Part shown: one piece after another, positions 20,534 to 26,053 of the stretch
Layout: each line of letters opens with the position of its first letter
Numbering within the stretch: position 1 is the first letter of the stretch
Origin: Massiliimicrobium timonense
GTDB lineage: Bacteria; Bacillota_I; Bacilli_A; Erysipelotrichales; Coprobacillaceae
NCBI RefSeq assembly: GCF_002160865.1
Contig: NZ_NFLJ01000033.1
Coordinates: 1 to 37,480 of the forward strand
Length of the DNA stretch: 37,480 bases
Direction: 5' to 3'
Made by a program: the position numbers and the translations under genes
Notes under the pieces: generated by a model
Told to the model about the DNA's origin: nothing
What the model saw: the letters and a program-made list of their open reading frames with translations, nothing else
Database searches by the model: none

Positions 20534-21667
20534 ATGAATAAAATGAAAATGATAAAATTATTAGGAGTGAGTACATTAATGCTGTCAGTAATGACAGGGT
20601 GTGGCAGTGGTAGCCGAACACAGGATTATACAAGTTTAGTAACATTAGATATTAATCCAAGTATTCAATTACAGCTTGATGAAAAAGATAAAGTTATTGA
20701 TGCTATTGCAGTTAATGATGATGCTAAAAAGGTACTAGAAGATATGGATTTAAAACAGGCAGATGCCAATGTTGCAATGAATGCAGTACTTGGTTCATTG
20801 GTTAAGAATGGATATTTAAATGCAAATCAAAATACAGTATTATTATCTGTTGAAAATGATGATGATAAAGCAAGAGTAGCATTGGAAGATGAATTGAGCC
20901 AATATATTTATACAACATTAAAAAGTTATTCTATTGAAGGAGCCATTTATTCTCAAGATATAGATATTGATGATGATATTGAATCTTTAATGAATAAATA
21001 TAGTATTTCTTATGGAAAGGCCAATCTGATTGAAGATATTATAGATGAAAATGATGATGAGAAGAAGACTTATAAAGTAGAAGATTTAGTGAAATTGAAT
21101 GCTCAAGACTTAATTTTAATTTACCAGTCTTTAAATAAGGACGATGCACAAAAAGATACTCATAAAATGGTAGGAAGTGTTAGTACAAAACAATATATTT
21201 CTCAAGACGAAGCTTTAAATGTTGCTTTAAAAAATGCATCTCTAACAAAAGATAAAATTAAAAATCTTGAAATAGATTATGATCTAGAAAACGGAGCATT
21301 AACTTATGATATTGAATTTACTTATAATCAAAATGAGTATGAATATGAAGTTAGTGCTACAAAAGGTATTGTAGAAAGAGAAGTAGAACCAAAGGTAACA
21401 ACAAAACCATCTACAAATACCTCAACAAATACAAATCAATCATCAAATACAAATTATGATAACACAAACTATGATAATACAAATTATCAGTCAACAAGTA
21501 AACCATCTACGTCAAAACCAGCAACAACACAACCATCAAGCTCTGGACAAACGACAAATAAAAACACGAATTATGACAATACAAACTATGATAACACAAA
21601 TTATGATGATCAAGAACAATCTAATTATGGAAATCAGTCAAACTATGATGATGACGATGATGACTAA
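20534..21667 (+). CDS. Lipoprotein with RsgI-like ectodomain, PepSY-like domain and TNYDN repeats
   Basis: The 377-residue protein has a lipoprotein signal (about 1-23, lipobox MTGC, lipidated C23). Residues about 35-190 match the extracytoplasmic middle domain of RsgI-type anti-sigma factors, including TLDINPSIQL. The N41-P42 bond lies where Clostridial RsgI proteins are reported to self-cleave. A PepSY-like region follows (about 215-283, ISQDEALNVALKNASL...VSATKGIVEREVE), then a low-complexity tail with two blocks of TNYDN repeats and a run of Asp. It has no cytoplasmic part, so it cannot bind a sigma factor directly. The same two ectodomains occur in the same order in the anti-sigma gene 22273-23232. 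I infer a surface partner, competitor or sensor subunit for that anti-sigma factor. AAGGAGATGAG precedes the ATG. Confidence 0.8.
   Translation: MNKMKMIKLLGVSTLMLSVMTGCGSGSRTQDYTSLVTLDINPSIQLQLDEKDKVIDAIAVNDDAKKVLEDMDLKQADANVAMNAVLGSLVKNGYLNANQNTVLLSVENDDDKARVALEDELSQYIYTTLKSYSIEGAIYSQDIDIDDDIESLMNKYSISYGKANLIEDIIDENDDEKKTYKVEDLVKLNAQDLILIYQSLNKDDAQKDTHKMVGSVSTKQYISQDEALNVALKNASLTKDKIKNLEIDYDLENGALTYDIEFTYNQNEYEYEVSATKGIVEREVEPKVTTKPSTNTSTNTNQSSNTNYDNTNYDNTNYQSTSKPSTSKPATTQPSSSGQTTNKNTNYDNTNYDNTNYDDQEQSNYGNQSNYDDDDDD
21446..21610 (+). repeat. Two blocks of a 15-bp coding repeat (TNYDN)
   Basis: Bases 21446-21487 and 21566-21610 each encode about two and a half to three copies of Thr-Asn-Tyr-Asp-Asn, separated by a Ser/Thr/Pro/Gln-rich spacer. 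Third-position variation between copies suggests selection at the protein level rather than very recent slippage. Confidence 0.85.
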
Positions 21668-21756
21668 TTAACGCAAACTTAATATAAACTTAAAATAAAT
21701 ATGCAAGAAAGTGGTGATTGATAAATGGGATATTAACATCATAGGGGAGATCTGTG

Positions 21757-22269
21757 ATGTTAGAAAAGAAATTAGAAAATTTAGTTGTTGAACTCAAGGA
21801 AAATCAAGATGTGTTGGCACAAATCTATGATTGTATGTATGATGAAGTTTATAGATATATTTATAGTATAGTTCATAATAAGGAATATGCACAAGATTTG
21901 ACACATGATACTTTTATACAGGTTTATCGCAATGTCCATTTGTATAAACCAAAAGGAAATGCGAAAGCATGGATTATTACGATTTCTCGTAATGTGACTT
22001 ATATGTCACTTCGTAAGTTATCAAGGGAGCAGGTTGTTGATTATGAAATTGATGGTGTTGATGAAGGAATGAATGGAATACATGATAAGATGATGATAAA
22101 AAGGATGATGAAAATACTTTGTCAAGATGAAAGTGAAATCATCATCTTACATGTTGTTGAAGGATTAAAGTTTAAAGAAATAGCACAGATTATGGATTTA
22201 AAGTTATCAACGGTTTTGAATAAATATCATCGTTCATTAAAAAAATTGAGAAAGAGTCTGGAGGAATGA
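21757..22269 (+). CDS. ECF-type (sigma-70 family) RNA polymerase sigma factor
   Basis: The 170-residue protein has only regions 2 and 4. Region 2 (about 20-90) shows YRYIYSIVHNKEYAQDLTHDTFIQVYRNV and the -10-recognition part NAKAWIITISRNVTYMSLRK. Region 4 (about 115-168) shows IIILHVVEGLKFKEIAQIMDLKLSTVLNKYHRSLKKL. It is shorter than SigI, the usual partner of RsgI proteins, and lacks the SigI C-terminal part, so it is an ECF-like variant. The ATG at 21757 has GGGGAG seven bases upstream; the adjacent GTG is closer than usual. The anti-sigma gene begins three bases after its stop. It probably directs its own operon and other envelope genes. Confidence 0.9.
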   Translation: MLEKKLENLVVELKENQDVLAQIYDCMYDEVYRYIYSIVHNKEYAQDLTHDTFIQVYRNVHLYKPKGNAKAWIITISRNVTYMSLRKLSREQVVDYEIDGVDEGMNGIHDKMMIKRMMKILCQDESEIIILHVVEGLKFKEIAQIMDLKLSTVLNKYHRSLKKLRKSLEE

Positions 22270-22272
22270 GCC

Positions 22273-23232
22273 TTGAAAAATAAAGAAATAAAAAATCAGT
22301 TAAAAAAAGAATTTCAAGATATTCATATGCCTTCAAGAAAAGAACAACTTATGCGAGATATTGAATATATTGATCAGCTTGAAGTTCAACAAATAAAAAG
22401 AAAGATACCTAGAAAATATCAAATCAGTTTTTTAGCTTTAGCGTGTACTCTTATTTTTGCTTTTATGATATCAAAACCTCAAAATGTTTATTCCGTTTCT
22501 TTTGAAGTCAATCCTAGTATTGAATTAAAAATCAATCATCAAAGACGTGTAGAAGATGTGATTTGTCATAATGATGATGCTTTGCTTGTGTTAGATGAAA
22601 TGGATTTAAAAAATACAGATTTAGATGTGGCTGTGAATGCTATTATAGGAAGTATGTTTAAATATGGTTATATTACAGAGGCTAAAAATTCTGTTCTTGT
22701 AAGTGTTCAGGGGAGCGATAAAGAAGCAAGAGAGGCATTAAAGCAAGATGTTGCAACTGATGTAAAAGATATCTTATCGGGTTATTCATTAAAAGCATCT
22801 GTTGTTTCACAAGATTACAAGTTTTCTAAAGAGCGAGAAGAATTAGCTGAAAAATATGGGATTTCTGTAGGTAAGGTGACATTAATAAAAAAATTAATAA
22901 ATGTTAGTCCGGATTATGAATTTGCTGATTTGGTTGATCTTTCCATTAATGATTTAAATACATTAATTCATTATAAAAATATACAGTTTAAAACCATTAC
23001 AATAGATGGGGTAGAAAGTCATAGTGGTTATTTGAGTGATGAAGAAGTCAGAACAAAAGTTTTAAATCACGCTCAAGTGACTCTTAATGATTTGAAATCA
23101 TATGAAGATGAGCTGGATGTTAAAAACAATCAACTTGTATATAATGTGAATTTTATGGATGCATATGCCAGTTATAATTATCAAGTGAATGCTATTAGTG
23201 GTGAAATTGTTTCATTTGATGTGAAAATGTAG
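22273..23232 (+). CDS. Membrane-anchored RsgI-like anti-sigma factor
   Basis: The 319-residue single-pass protein has a short cytoplasmic segment (about 1-48, probably sigma-binding), one TM helix (about 50-66), an RsgI-like extracytoplasmic domain (about 74-235) with FEVNPSIELKI (N80-P81, the expected self-cleavage bond), and a PepSY-like C-terminal region (about 252-319). In RsgI systems, autocleavage followed by regulated proteolysis frees the sigma factor; that mechanism is transferred from the family. The start is TTG at 22273 with GGAGGAATG upstream, three bases after the sigma gene. The ectodomain is a clear paralogue of the lipoprotein gene at 20534, sharing VNAIIGSMFKYGYI-type and YGISVGKV-type segments. 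No carbohydrate-binding module is fused, unlike cellulosome RsgI proteins. Confidence 0.85.
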   Translation: MKNKEIKNQLKKEFQDIHMPSRKEQLMRDIEYIDQLEVQQIKRKIPRKYQISFLALACTLIFAFMISKPQNVYSVSFEVNPSIELKINHQRRVEDVICHNDDALLVLDEMDLKNTDLDVAVNAIIGSMFKYGYITEAKNSVLVSVQGSDKEAREALKQDVATDVKDILSGYSLKASVVSQDYKFSKEREELAEKYGISVGKVTLIKKLINVSPDYEFADLVDLSINDLNTLIHYKNIQFKTITIDGVESHSGYLSDEEVRTKVLNHAQVTLNDLKSYEDELDVKNNQLVYNVNFMDAYASYNYQVNAISGEIVSFDVKM

Positions 23233-23254
23233 GAGTTTATGAAAATAAACTCCT
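23231..23254 (+). promoter_or_regulatory. Intercistronic hairpin with GAAA tetraloop
   Basis: A perfect 10-bp stem AGGAGTTTAT/ATAAACTCCT is capped by GAAA, a GNRA tetraloop. It overlaps the anti-sigma stop codon and is not followed by a T run, so it is more likely an mRNA processing, stability or attenuation element than a strong terminator. Confidence 0.7.
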
Positions 23255-23277
23255 CAATTTATAGAGAGGTTATGCTT

Positions 23278-23973
23278 ATGATCAAGAATTATAAACCTAT
23301 TCAATATCGTCACGAACTTAAACATATCATAAACCCATTAGAAGCAGAAGTTTTAAATCAAAGATTAAATCTATTATTCACTAAAGATCATTATACATTG
23401 AATGAAGGATATTATGATGTTCATAGTCTTTATTTTGATACACCTGATGATAAAGCTTTAAAAGAAAAGTTAAATGGGGTATCACAAAGGCATAAGTTTA
23501 GAATACGATATTATAATCATGATTTAAGTTTTATACGTTTAGAAAAGAAATTGAAGTATAATGGATTATGTGCGAAGCGTTCTACGAAATTGACTGTTAA
23601 ACAGGTTCAAGATATATTAAATGGAAAGATAGATTTTTTATTAAAAAGTGATGATCCATTGATGATAGAATTTTATAGTGCATTAAAAGGGGAGCTGTTA
23701 AAACCTTGTGTGATTGTATCCTATCAAAGACAAGCTTATACATATGATGTTTCTAAAGTACGATTGACAATAGATAGACACTTGTGTACTTATAAAAATA
23801 TTCATGACTTTTTGTCATTAGATAATAGAAATATAAGTGTAGATGATTTTGCAGTATTTGAAGTAAAATATAATGAGTTTTTACCAGATATTGTTAAAAT
23901 GGTAATACAAGGACTTTCACAGAAAACATCAGCCTATTCAAAATTTGCAAAATGTCGACAGATTGATTGGTAA
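23278..23973 (+). CDS. VTC-domain protein (polyphosphate polymerase-like)
   Basis: The 231-residue soluble protein has the triphosphate-tunnel fold of the VTC domain, the catalytic part of eukaryotic polyphosphate polymerase. It shows the basic and acidic tunnel motifs in order: IQYRHELKHII, VHSLYFDTPDD, HKFRIRYYNHD, FIRLEKKLKYNGLCAKRS, RLTIDRHL, and VFEVKYNEFLPDIVKMVIQ near the C terminus. The ATG at 23278 has GAGG eight bases upstream. An ATG at 23239 in the same frame sits inside the hairpin and is rejected. Twelve bases separate it from DUF4956. VTC, DUF4956 and CotH genes are commonly neighbours in Firmicutes. Whether this protein makes polyphosphate or another phosphate polymer is not shown by the sequence. 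Confidence 0.85.
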   Translation: MIKNYKPIQYRHELKHIINPLEAEVLNQRLNLLFTKDHYTLNEGYYDVHSLYFDTPDDKALKEKLNGVSQRHKFRIRYYNHDLSFIRLEKKLKYNGLCAKRSTKLTVKQVQDILNGKIDFLLKSDDPLMIEFYSALKGELLKPCVIVSYQRQAYTYDVSKVRLTIDRHLCTYKNIHDFLSLDNRNISVDDFAVFEVKYNEFLPDIVKMVIQGLSQKTSAYSKFAKCRQIDW

Positions 23974-23985
23974 AGGAGAATAAAA

Positions 23986-24657
23986 ATGACTTTTCAAGAT
24001 ATATTTCGTTCAAATTTTTTAGAAAATATACACGCTGTTTCATTGTTAGATATGTCAATAGCGTTGCTATTGGCATTTATGATGGGAATGTTTATTTTCT
24101 TTATTTATAAAAAAACATATAGTGGAATTATGTATACTTCCAGTTTTGCGATAACACTTGTAGCTTTAACAATGATTACCACATTGGTTATTCTTGCCAT
24201 CACAAGTAATATTGTTTTATCTTTAGGAATGGTTGGTGCTTTATCTATTGTGAGATTTAGAACGGCTGTTAAAGAACCTATGGATATTGCATTTTTGTTT
24301 TGGAGTATAGCGGTAGGTATTGTATTGGCAGCAGGTTTAATCCCCTTAGCTGTATTTGGTAGTTTATGGATTGGACTCATTCTTTATATCTTTTCTCATA
24401 AGAAAAATACCCAAAGACCTTATATACTGGTTGTTCATTGTGAAAATCAAGACAGTGAAAAGAATGTCTATCAATTTATTCAAAATCAGGTATCTGCTTT
24501 TTCACTGAAAAGCAAGAGTATCAAAAAAGATTGCATTGAACTGAATTATGAAGTCAGACTTAAGGATCAAGAAACATCATTTGTTAATGAACTTTCAGAT
24601 ATGGAAGGTGTTTTATATACAGTGATGGTTTCTTATAATGGAGATTATATGAATTAA
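23986..24657 (+). CDS. DUF4956 membrane protein
   Basis: The 223-residue protein has four predicted TM helices (between about 20 and 135) and a soluble C-terminal alpha/beta domain (about 140-223). The family signature is clear in the loop LGMVGALSIVRFRTAVKEPMDIAFLFW. The C-terminal part (YILVVHCENQDSEKNVYQFIQNQV, YTVMVSYNGDYM) looks ferredoxin-like and may bind a ligand or partner. Its biochemical role is unknown. It lies between the VTC and CotH genes, one base before the latter, the typical neighbourhood of the family, so a complex or a polymer-export function is an inference. AAAGGAGA precedes the ATG. Confidence 0.88.
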   Translation: MTFQDIFRSNFLENIHAVSLLDMSIALLLAFMMGMFIFFIYKKTYSGIMYTSSFAITLVALTMITTLVILAITSNIVLSLGMVGALSIVRFRTAVKEPMDIAFLFWSIAVGIVLAAGLIPLAVFGSLWIGLILYIFSHKKNTQRPYILVVHCENQDSEKNVYQFIQNQVSAFSLKSKSIKKDCIELNYEVRLKDQETSFVNELSDMEGVLYTVMVSYNGDYMN

Positions 24658-24658
24658 T

Positions 24659-26053
24659 ATGATTAAACATAAATATATAGATAGGATTGTTTTGATATTT
24701 GTTATCCTTAGTCTTATTATAACGATTGGTTTCATGTTACCGGGACATTGGGGTATAACACCAGCTTATCAGTTACCAGCTTATGCTTCTAAGTTATTTG
24801 ATCAAAGTTATGTCCATACTATCGATATACAATTGGATAATCCACAGAATTTTTTTGATCAGGCACAAGCCAAAGAATATCATGTATCTTCTATAACGAT
24901 AGATGGTGAAACCTTTGATATGGTAGGTTTAAGAGTGAAAGGGAATAACTCATTAGAGCTTATTGATCGTTATGGGTCGGATCGCTTTAGTTTAAAAGTA
25001 GAATTTGATCATTATGATTCAGGATATCATTATTATGGCTTAGATAAGTTTACATTAGATTGCTCTTTTCAAGACAATGCCTATTTAAAAAACTATATAA
25101 CTTATGATATGATGTCTTTTATGGGAGTCCCATCTCCTCTAACAAGTTATGTCTGGGTGACAATTAATCAAAAAGATTGGGGATTATTTTTAGCAATCGA
25201 AGAACCAGAAGAAGCTTTTATAAGAAGAAATTATGGAAGAAATCATGGTGTGCTTTATAAACCGGGATATACAGATGTTTATGCACCCAATAGAGATTTA
25301 GCGTTACAGTATATTGATGAGAATATTGAATCGTATCCTAATTTATTTGATAATGCAAAATTTAAGATAACTGAGGCAGATAAAAAAAGATTAATTCAAT
25401 CATTAAAAATCTTAGATGATAATCAAAATATTGAAAAAGCTGTCAATATAGATGAAGTTTTAAGATATTTTGTAGTACAGGTTTTTGTAGTGAATTTAGA
25501 TAGTTATTTAGGTCCGACTGGGCATAATTATTATTTATATGAAGAAGATGGTATGATTTCAATGCTTCCTTGGGATTACAATTTGGCATATGGCACATAT
25601 TCACTGGGAATGCCTAATCCTAGTAATGATATAACAAGGTATGTCAACTTTCCAATCAACACACCTTATACTAAAGAAGTTATGTTGAATAGACCATTAT
25701 ATCATCATGTTATGCAACATGATGAATATTTCAAACAATATCATCAATATTTCCAACAATTGATCAGTGAATATTTTGAAAGTGGATATTTCCAAAACAA
25801 AGTAGAAGATACAATTAAAATGATAGATTCTTATGTGCAAAAAGACCCAACTGCATTTTGTTCTTATCAAGATTATCTTTTGGGTGTAGAAACGTTTCAA
25901 GAGTTTTGCTTATTAAGATCAAAAAGTATTAGAGGACAACTCGAAGGACAGCTACCTGCCAATCTTTCTCAACAAAATGAAGAATCACCAAGAATAGACG
26001 CTTCACATATAAGATTGGAAGATATGGGAGAAATTGCAGATTTATATCAATGA
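24659..26053 (+). CDS. CotH-family kinase-like protein, membrane-anchored
   Basis: The 464-residue protein has an N-terminal hydrophobic helix (about 9-27) followed by an extracytoplasmic CotH domain (about 45-400). Family motifs include MVGLRVKGNNSLEL, YHYYGLDKFTLDCSFQDNAYLKNYITYDMM, YVWVTINQKDWGLFLAIEEPEEAFI, VVNLDSYLGPTGHNYYLYEEDG and the metal-binding MLPWDYNLAYG. Bacillus CotH is an atypical kinase that phosphorylates spore-coat proteins. Secreted CotH proteins outside the coat are widespread and poorly characterised. Here the linkage to VTC and DUF4956 suggests action on an extracellular phosphate- or ATP-derived substrate, but this is inference. It is the last gene of the run and is followed by a bidirectional terminator. 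Confidence 0.87.
   Translation: MIKHKYIDRIVLIFVILSLIITIGFMLPGHWGITPAYQLPAYASKLFDQSYVHTIDIQLDNPQNFFDQAQAKEYHVSSITIDGETFDMVGLRVKGNNSLELIDRYGSDRFSLKVEFDHYDSGYHYYGLDKFTLDCSFQDNAYLKNYITYDMMSFMGVPSPLTSYVWVTINQKDWGLFLAIEEPEEAFIRRNYGRNHGVLYKPGYTDVYAPNRDLALQYIDENIESYPNLFDNAKFKITEADKKRLIQSLKILDDNQNIEKAVNIDEVLRYFVVQVFVVNLDSYLGPTGHNYYLYEEDGMISMLPWDYNLAYGTYSLGMPNPSNDITRYVNFPINTPYTKEVMLNRPLYHHVMQHDEYFKQYHQYFQQLISEYFESGYFQNKVEDTIKMIDSYVQKDPTAFCSYQDYLLGVETFQEFCLLRSKSIRGQLEGQLPANLSQQNEESPRIDASHIRLEDMGEIADLYQ

Follow-up and report, generated by a model that had tools for sequence, protein, structure and literature searches.

Organization of the locus

The window, that is, the whole 37,480-nucleotide stretch of Massiliimicrobium timonense DNA analyzed here (contig NZ_NFLJ01000033.1), contains a run of genes on the forward strand that opens with a lipoprotein of 377 amino acids (20534 to 21667). 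Its signal peptide (20534 to 20602), identified by sequence inspection, ends in the lipobox V-M-T-G-C23, which is kept in homologous lipoproteins. The mature protein consists of an RsgI_M/SEAL domain at residues 34 to 167 (20633 to 21034; PF23750, E = 2.8e-25), a PepSY domain at residues 222 to 278 (21197 to 21367; PF03413, E = 4.6e-06), and a low-complexity Asn/Thr/Ser/Tyr/Asp tail from about residue 285 to 377 (21386 to 21664), which has (NTNYD)n repeats, with 15-bp tandem repeats in the DNA, and a run of Asp. An ECF-type σ factor gene with Sigma70_r2 and Sigma70_r4_2 domains and ECF superfamily matches (21757 to 22269; alternative GTG start at 21754) lies between the lipoprotein gene and that of an anti-σ factor of 319 amino acids with a TTG start (22273 to 23232). 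The anti-σ factor has about 46 cytoplasmic residues and a transmembrane (TM) helix at about residues 47 to 66, followed by an RsgI_M/SEAL domain at residues 74 to 207 (22492 to 22893; PF23750, E = 2.1e-27) and a PepSY domain at residues 254 to 314 (23032 to 23214; PF03413, E = 1.4e-06); it has no Tyr-Asp tail like that of the lipoprotein. The same gene run continues with a VTC-domain protein (23239 to 23973; PF09359, E = 1.8e-38), a DUF4956 membrane protein (23986 to 24657; PF16316, E = 2.9e-13), and a CotH-kinase-like protein (24659 to 26053; PF08757, E = 1.2e-55), in a conserved order.

The initial annotation held that the two proteins share an RsgI-like domain followed by a PepSY-like domain, and this is borne out by profile and pairwise comparison. 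All RsgI_M and PepSY matches exceed the curated Pfam cutoffs (PF23750 scores of 89.9 bits for the lipoprotein and 96.8 bits for the anti-σ factor, cutoff 25.3), and the proteins are 35% identical with 58% positives over 275 amino acids by BLASTP (E = 5e-42), far above chance and not a generic low similarity. The entire ectodomain is common to both. The Asn-Pro motifs fall exactly where they had been placed, at Asn41-Pro42 of the lipoprotein (20654 to 20659) and Asn80-Pro81 of the anti-σ factor (22510 to 22515), each a putative self-cleavage bond. It is also correct that the lipoprotein lacks a TM helix and a cytoplasmic σ-binding segment, its signal peptide being the sole hydrophobic helix. 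The suggestion of a soluble competitor fares less well, as a lipid tether to the membrane is predicted for the lipoprotein. Taken together, it is well supported that the product of this gene is a lipid-anchored twin of the anti-σ ectodomain of its own operon.

The σ factor adjoins a membrane protein that has one TM helix and a short segment in the cytoplasm, as expected of an ECF/anti-σ pair. A SigI-RsgI pair was considered and rejected: profile searches found no RsgI_N domain (PF12791) in the anti-σ factor or elsewhere in this genome, although one was found in a relative with a SigI-type arrangement (type B, below), and the Sigma70_r2 and Sigma70_r4_2 domains of the σ factor match ECF models. 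The pair in the window is thus of the ECF type, its ectodomain being RsgI-like.

The genome contains four RsgI_M matches, two at this locus and one each on contigs C26 and C67. The C26 anti-σ factor has the Asn-Pro motif and PepSY-like repeats. The C67 SEAL anti-σ factor (L004:1300-1947, G000:C67) has Asp-Ser in its place, indicating that a SEAL domain can lose the motif; this protein is a natural candidate for a noncleaving SEAL domain. A site-2 protease gene (Peptidase_M50; PF02163, E = 3.1e-62) is present on contig C92.

Predicted fold and the Asn-Pro bond

The name SEAL and the autoproteolysis of this domain reportedly stem from work on B. subtilis RsgI. AF2 models of the lipoprotein ectodomain and the anti-σ factor, built on alignments of 25 and 23 natural sequences, respectively, have mean pLDDT values of 89.8 and 84.9, a confident prediction of the fold. 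Both find their best Foldseek matches in the solved periplasmic domains of RsgI from B. subtilis and C. thermocellum (probability 1.00; 8t9n and 8hdj). No RseB was among the Foldseek matches listed for the lipoprotein, the top ones being RsgI domains. In both models, Asn-Pro is placed in the predicted turn between strands 1 and 2 (N18-P19 in the numbering of the lipoprotein model, between strands 11 to 16 and 20 to 25), and the first strands are much alike (TLDINPSIQL versus SFEVNPSIEL).

The residue aligned with Pro81 is the first one of the PDB chains 8her_B, 8heq_B, 8hdj_B, 8u9o_B, and 8hep_B, and solved RsgI chains likewise start at the Pro aligned with Pro42 of the lipoprotein, as cleavage of the bond would predict. 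RsgI cleaves itself, its first strand then separates, and RseP and ClpXP act (PMC12203970); in B. subtilis, the two parts of cleaved RsgI do not separate before a cell wall defect is sensed (PMC10202637). By analogy, we infer that both window proteins cleave themselves at Asn-Pro.

Recurrence of SEAL twins in Bacilli and Clostridia

Is the pairing peculiar to this genome? SEAL lipoproteins accompany SEAL anti-σ factors, of either the ECF or the SigI type, at about 50 loci, which span many families of Bacilli and Clostridia. In an order-level sample, RsgI_M occurs in 67 of 148 genomes, and 24 of these 67 were found by hand count to have a twin, which in one case (G127) is TM anchored and without a lipobox. 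A wider sample gave twins in 17 of 41 RsgI_M genomes, again by hand count. Many SEAL anti-σ factors have no twin.

The pairs can be sorted by gene order. Type A, found in six genomes including the window, consists of lipoprotein, ECF σ factor, anti-σ factor, VTC, DUF4956, and CotH genes. Type B, with a SigI-type σ factor, an RsgI with RsgI_N, the lipoprotein, VTC, DUF4956, and CotH, accounts for most of the remaining twin genomes of the order-level sample and extends to Clostridia, where Lachnoclostridium An14, Mordavella massiliensis, and “Candidatus Avilachnospira” are examples among the matches listed for a DUF4956-seeded scan of named genomes, themselves mostly Clostridia. Outside the order, twins also occur without the VTC-DUF4956-CotH trio. 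In type C, the lipoprotein precedes the ECF σ factor and the anti-σ factor (L194 to L196; same order in L206, L207, and L214 to L216), and in type D it follows them (L197 to L200; same order in L208 to L213). The two SEAL genes lie four genes apart at locus L201, and at L217 they occur with no σ factor detected. At L085 (1256-4058; type F), the twin beside an ECF σ factor and its anti-σ factor is anchored by an N-terminal TM helix and not by a lipid.

SEAL lipoproteins without a neighboring σ gene were found at L203 and L218 to L220. Those at L218 (2586-5258), L219 (2464-4086), and L220 (2800-4395) have three or two tandem SEAL domains, with no σ factor detected nearby. The open-access literature searched yielded no description of twins beside RsgI/SEAL anti-σ factors, and they thus appear to be undescribed there.

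Conserved motif and shared C-terminal modules

Asn-Pro is kept in all 40 tabulated SEAL twins and in 12 of 12 further ones (52/52). In most of the tabulated twins, the lipid-bearing Cys lies 16 to 29 residues ahead of the Asn; in the window lipoprotein, 18 residues of strand follow it. The modules behind the SEAL domain are usually common to a twin and its cognate anti-σ factor. Type A pairs share PepSY; type B pairs, Tyr-Asp repeats; type C pairs, two PepSY-like repeats and an acidic tail (43 to 56% identity); and type F pairs, two C-terminal repeats (54% identity). Across types C and F, the C-terminal modules of twin and anti-σ factor are 42 to 56% identical. In type D, both C-terminal halves have a long helical-looking region but show no similarity by BLAST, so a shared ligand is not established for this type.

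Origin and codivergence of the twins

In SEAL trees, type A lipoproteins fall among ECF-type anti-σ factors, type B lipoproteins form a clade of their own, and type C lipoproteins and anti-σ factors group together (support 99/96). The C-terminal extension of stand-alone ECF anti-σ factors, used as a profile, matches 5 of 5 type A lipoproteins (E of about 1e-9); of 24 type B lipoproteins, 23 give no match and one appears at E = 2.8. Tree tests reject a single clade of all ECF-type lipoproteins, and with it a single origin (P of about 1e-45); for the ECF-type loci, a single clade of type A and C lipoproteins is also rejected (P = 0.026). For types A and B, a single lipoprotein clade withstands the test when all rows are included (P = 0.30) and is borderline when long branches are left out (P = 0.051). 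The rejection of one ECF-type lipoprotein clade indicates that the twins apparently arose more than once or that the pairs are homogenized with their anti-σ factors.

With which genes of the locus do the lipoproteins diverge? In type B, distances between lipoprotein SEAL domains correlate with those of the anti-σ factor after removal of VTC, DUF4956, CotH, and SigI distances (partial correlation 0.54, P = 0.0005, in a small sample of 17 loci and by a liberal partial Mantel test whose P values run too small). The corresponding values are -0.06 for VTC and -0.21 for CotH, with a weaker link to DUF4956 (0.35). The divergence of type B lipoproteins therefore tracks the anti-σ factor and not the VTC or CotH enzymes. 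Upstream regions were less informative: the SigI promoter motif [AC]CCCC..CGA has two intergenic matches upstream of type B genes in 27 loci, and alignment of the regions upstream of type A lipoprotein genes showed a TTGTGATAA...GCATT stretch common to relatives but no clear ECF-type motif. Recurrence, the kept Asn-Pro, common C-terminal modules, and codivergence in type B support, at the level of sequence comparison, a functional link between twin and anti-σ factor.

A possible function in setting the release threshold

Twins turn up next to a wide range of such switches and without exception retain the putative cutting site, and so they probably contribute to the way these switches sense the cell surface. 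What would an ectodomain without an output do there? Our leading explanation, held with somewhat less than even confidence, is that the twin is an autocleaving, lipid-tethered cosensor that shares the ligand or load of the anti-σ factor and thereby sets the threshold for release of its ectodomain. Following the RsgI literature, both SEAL domains would cut themselves at Asn-Pro, with the halves held together by the β sheet, so that the sole link of each ectodomain to the membrane would be a short strand, attached to the lipidated Cys in one protein and to the TM helix in the other. The twin, lying beside the anti-σ factor in the membrane, would engage the same envelope ligand or structure, and by sharing this ligand or pull it would set the threshold at which the anti-σ ectodomain leaves its strand. 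Loss of the ectodomain would open the remaining stub to intramembrane proteolysis and free the σ factor. With nothing on the cytoplasmic side, the twin would send no signal when it is itself released, and it could therefore act as a buffer or fuse.

A more general and more tentative proposal, to which we give roughly one chance in three, is that SEAL anti-σ factors across Bacillota are often two-protein sensors, made up of a TM signaler and a repeatedly re-evolved, self-cleaving, lipid-anchored twin without output, which would set the release threshold by shared load or ligand or by a swap of strand 1. If so, a bacterial mechanosensing pathway would contain a fuse or decoy that is a paralogue of its own sensor.

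Tyr-Asp tails and other explanations

The tail of the lipoprotein raises another possibility. Tyr-Asp repeat tails are present in 29 of 29 trio-linked twins and in 0 of 11 others, and the type A lipoprotein at L037 has the TDYGPNNDGVT repeat of type B tails although its SEAL domain differs from theirs; the tail thus follows the trio and the SEAL domain follows the σ factor type. The tandem repeats, NTNYD or TDYGPNNDGVTDYD (in the window and at L043 to L050 and L075 to L083), are also found on many type B RsgI proteins, and it is possible that they are a substrate or calcium-binding repeats. VTC comes directly after the lipoprotein gene in type B loci and in those of G089, once (L082) without an anti-σ factor nearby.

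Accordingly arranged, these data can also be read as follows: the lipoprotein would be a monitored surface product, perhaps made or modified by the VTC, DUF4956, and CotH proteins, and the anti-σ ectodomain would be a mimic that, being exposed to like processing or tension, reports its state and switches on its replacement. We consider this somewhat unlikely, at a little over one chance in four, and yet almost equally economical. The distribution of the tails is the best argument for it, joined by the gene position next to VTC and by the SEAL lipoproteins without a nearby σ gene. It has to contend with the many twins that lack the trio, with lipoprotein divergence that does not follow VTC or CotH, and with the tailless anti-σ factor of the window.

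The VTC-DUF4956-CotH run (23239 to 26053 in the window) also accompanies SigI-type pairs in many genomes. Judged by eye among the matches listed (L114 to L193), SEAL lipoproteins accompany CotH proteins of about 440 to 512 amino acids, and trios with longer CotH proteins (530 to 800 amino acids) are mostly without SEAL genes.

Another explanation, which we regard as improbable, is a swap of first strands between the two self-cut bodies, or a mixed sheet of both, by which the twin would directly strip or lock the anti-σ ectodomain. The invariant Asn-Pro of the twins, the close likeness of the first strands, and the position of the SEAL domain close behind the membrane anchor in both proteins are consistent with such an exchange, but homology alone explains the likeness of the strands. 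Slightly less probable still is that the twin is an ordinary duplication paralogue that displays its own tail on a generic SEAL domain and does not interact with the anti-σ factor, as SEAL lipoproteins without a neighboring anti-σ factor, some with two or three SEAL domains, might suggest, since this accords poorly with recurrent adjacency (about 50 loci), with the repeated origin of the twins, and with an Asn-Pro that never varies in them and a divergence that follows the anti-σ factor.

Comparison with known systems

A cosensor that shares the ligand or load of the anti-σ factor can be set against several described systems. RsgI of B. subtilis and RsgI1, RsgI2, RsgI6, and RsgI9 of C. thermocellum share the SEAL/RsgI_M fold of these ectodomains, in which Asn-Pro lies between strands 1 and 2. 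Unlike them, the window anti-σ factor has no RsgI_N and is partnered by an ECF-type σ factor instead of SigI, and the lipoprotein has neither a TM nor a cytoplasmic part; no description of a lipoprotein twin for RsgI was found in the open-access literature. C. thermocellum RsgI9 resembles the twin in being a SEAL-bearing protein without a cognate σ factor (PMC12203970), but it is described among the transmembrane RsgI proteins and not as a lipoprotein.

RseB and MucB, the periplasmic partners of RseA and MucA, are similar in that an extracytoplasmic protein beside a membrane anti-σ factor tunes regulated proteolysis (PMC10202637). The window lipoprotein differs in being a paralogue of the anti-σ ectodomain itself, with a putative self-cleavage site.

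The VTC-DUF4956-CotH run of the window resembles C. perfringens NELoc-2 and the accessory genes found in Pel clusters of Gram-positive bacteria (PMC2879425, PMC7112168). NELoc-2 (CP4_0458 to CP4_0465) combines SigI, a 348-amino-acid cell wall protein, VTC, a VTC partner annotated as tubulin, and CotH in one run (PMC2879425); it differs in that a single protein is listed between SigI and VTC, with no lipoprotein twin described. A SEAL twin with a repeat tail is now linked to these unexplained VTC-DUF4956-CotH genes. RsgI signaling as known relies on a single self-cut sensor, whose parts separate once its ectodomain is pulled or bound; that a second copy of this ectodomain is widespread on a lipid anchor, with its cutting site kept, and was apparently formed more than once suggests an unrecognized component that tunes the threshold of this pathway.
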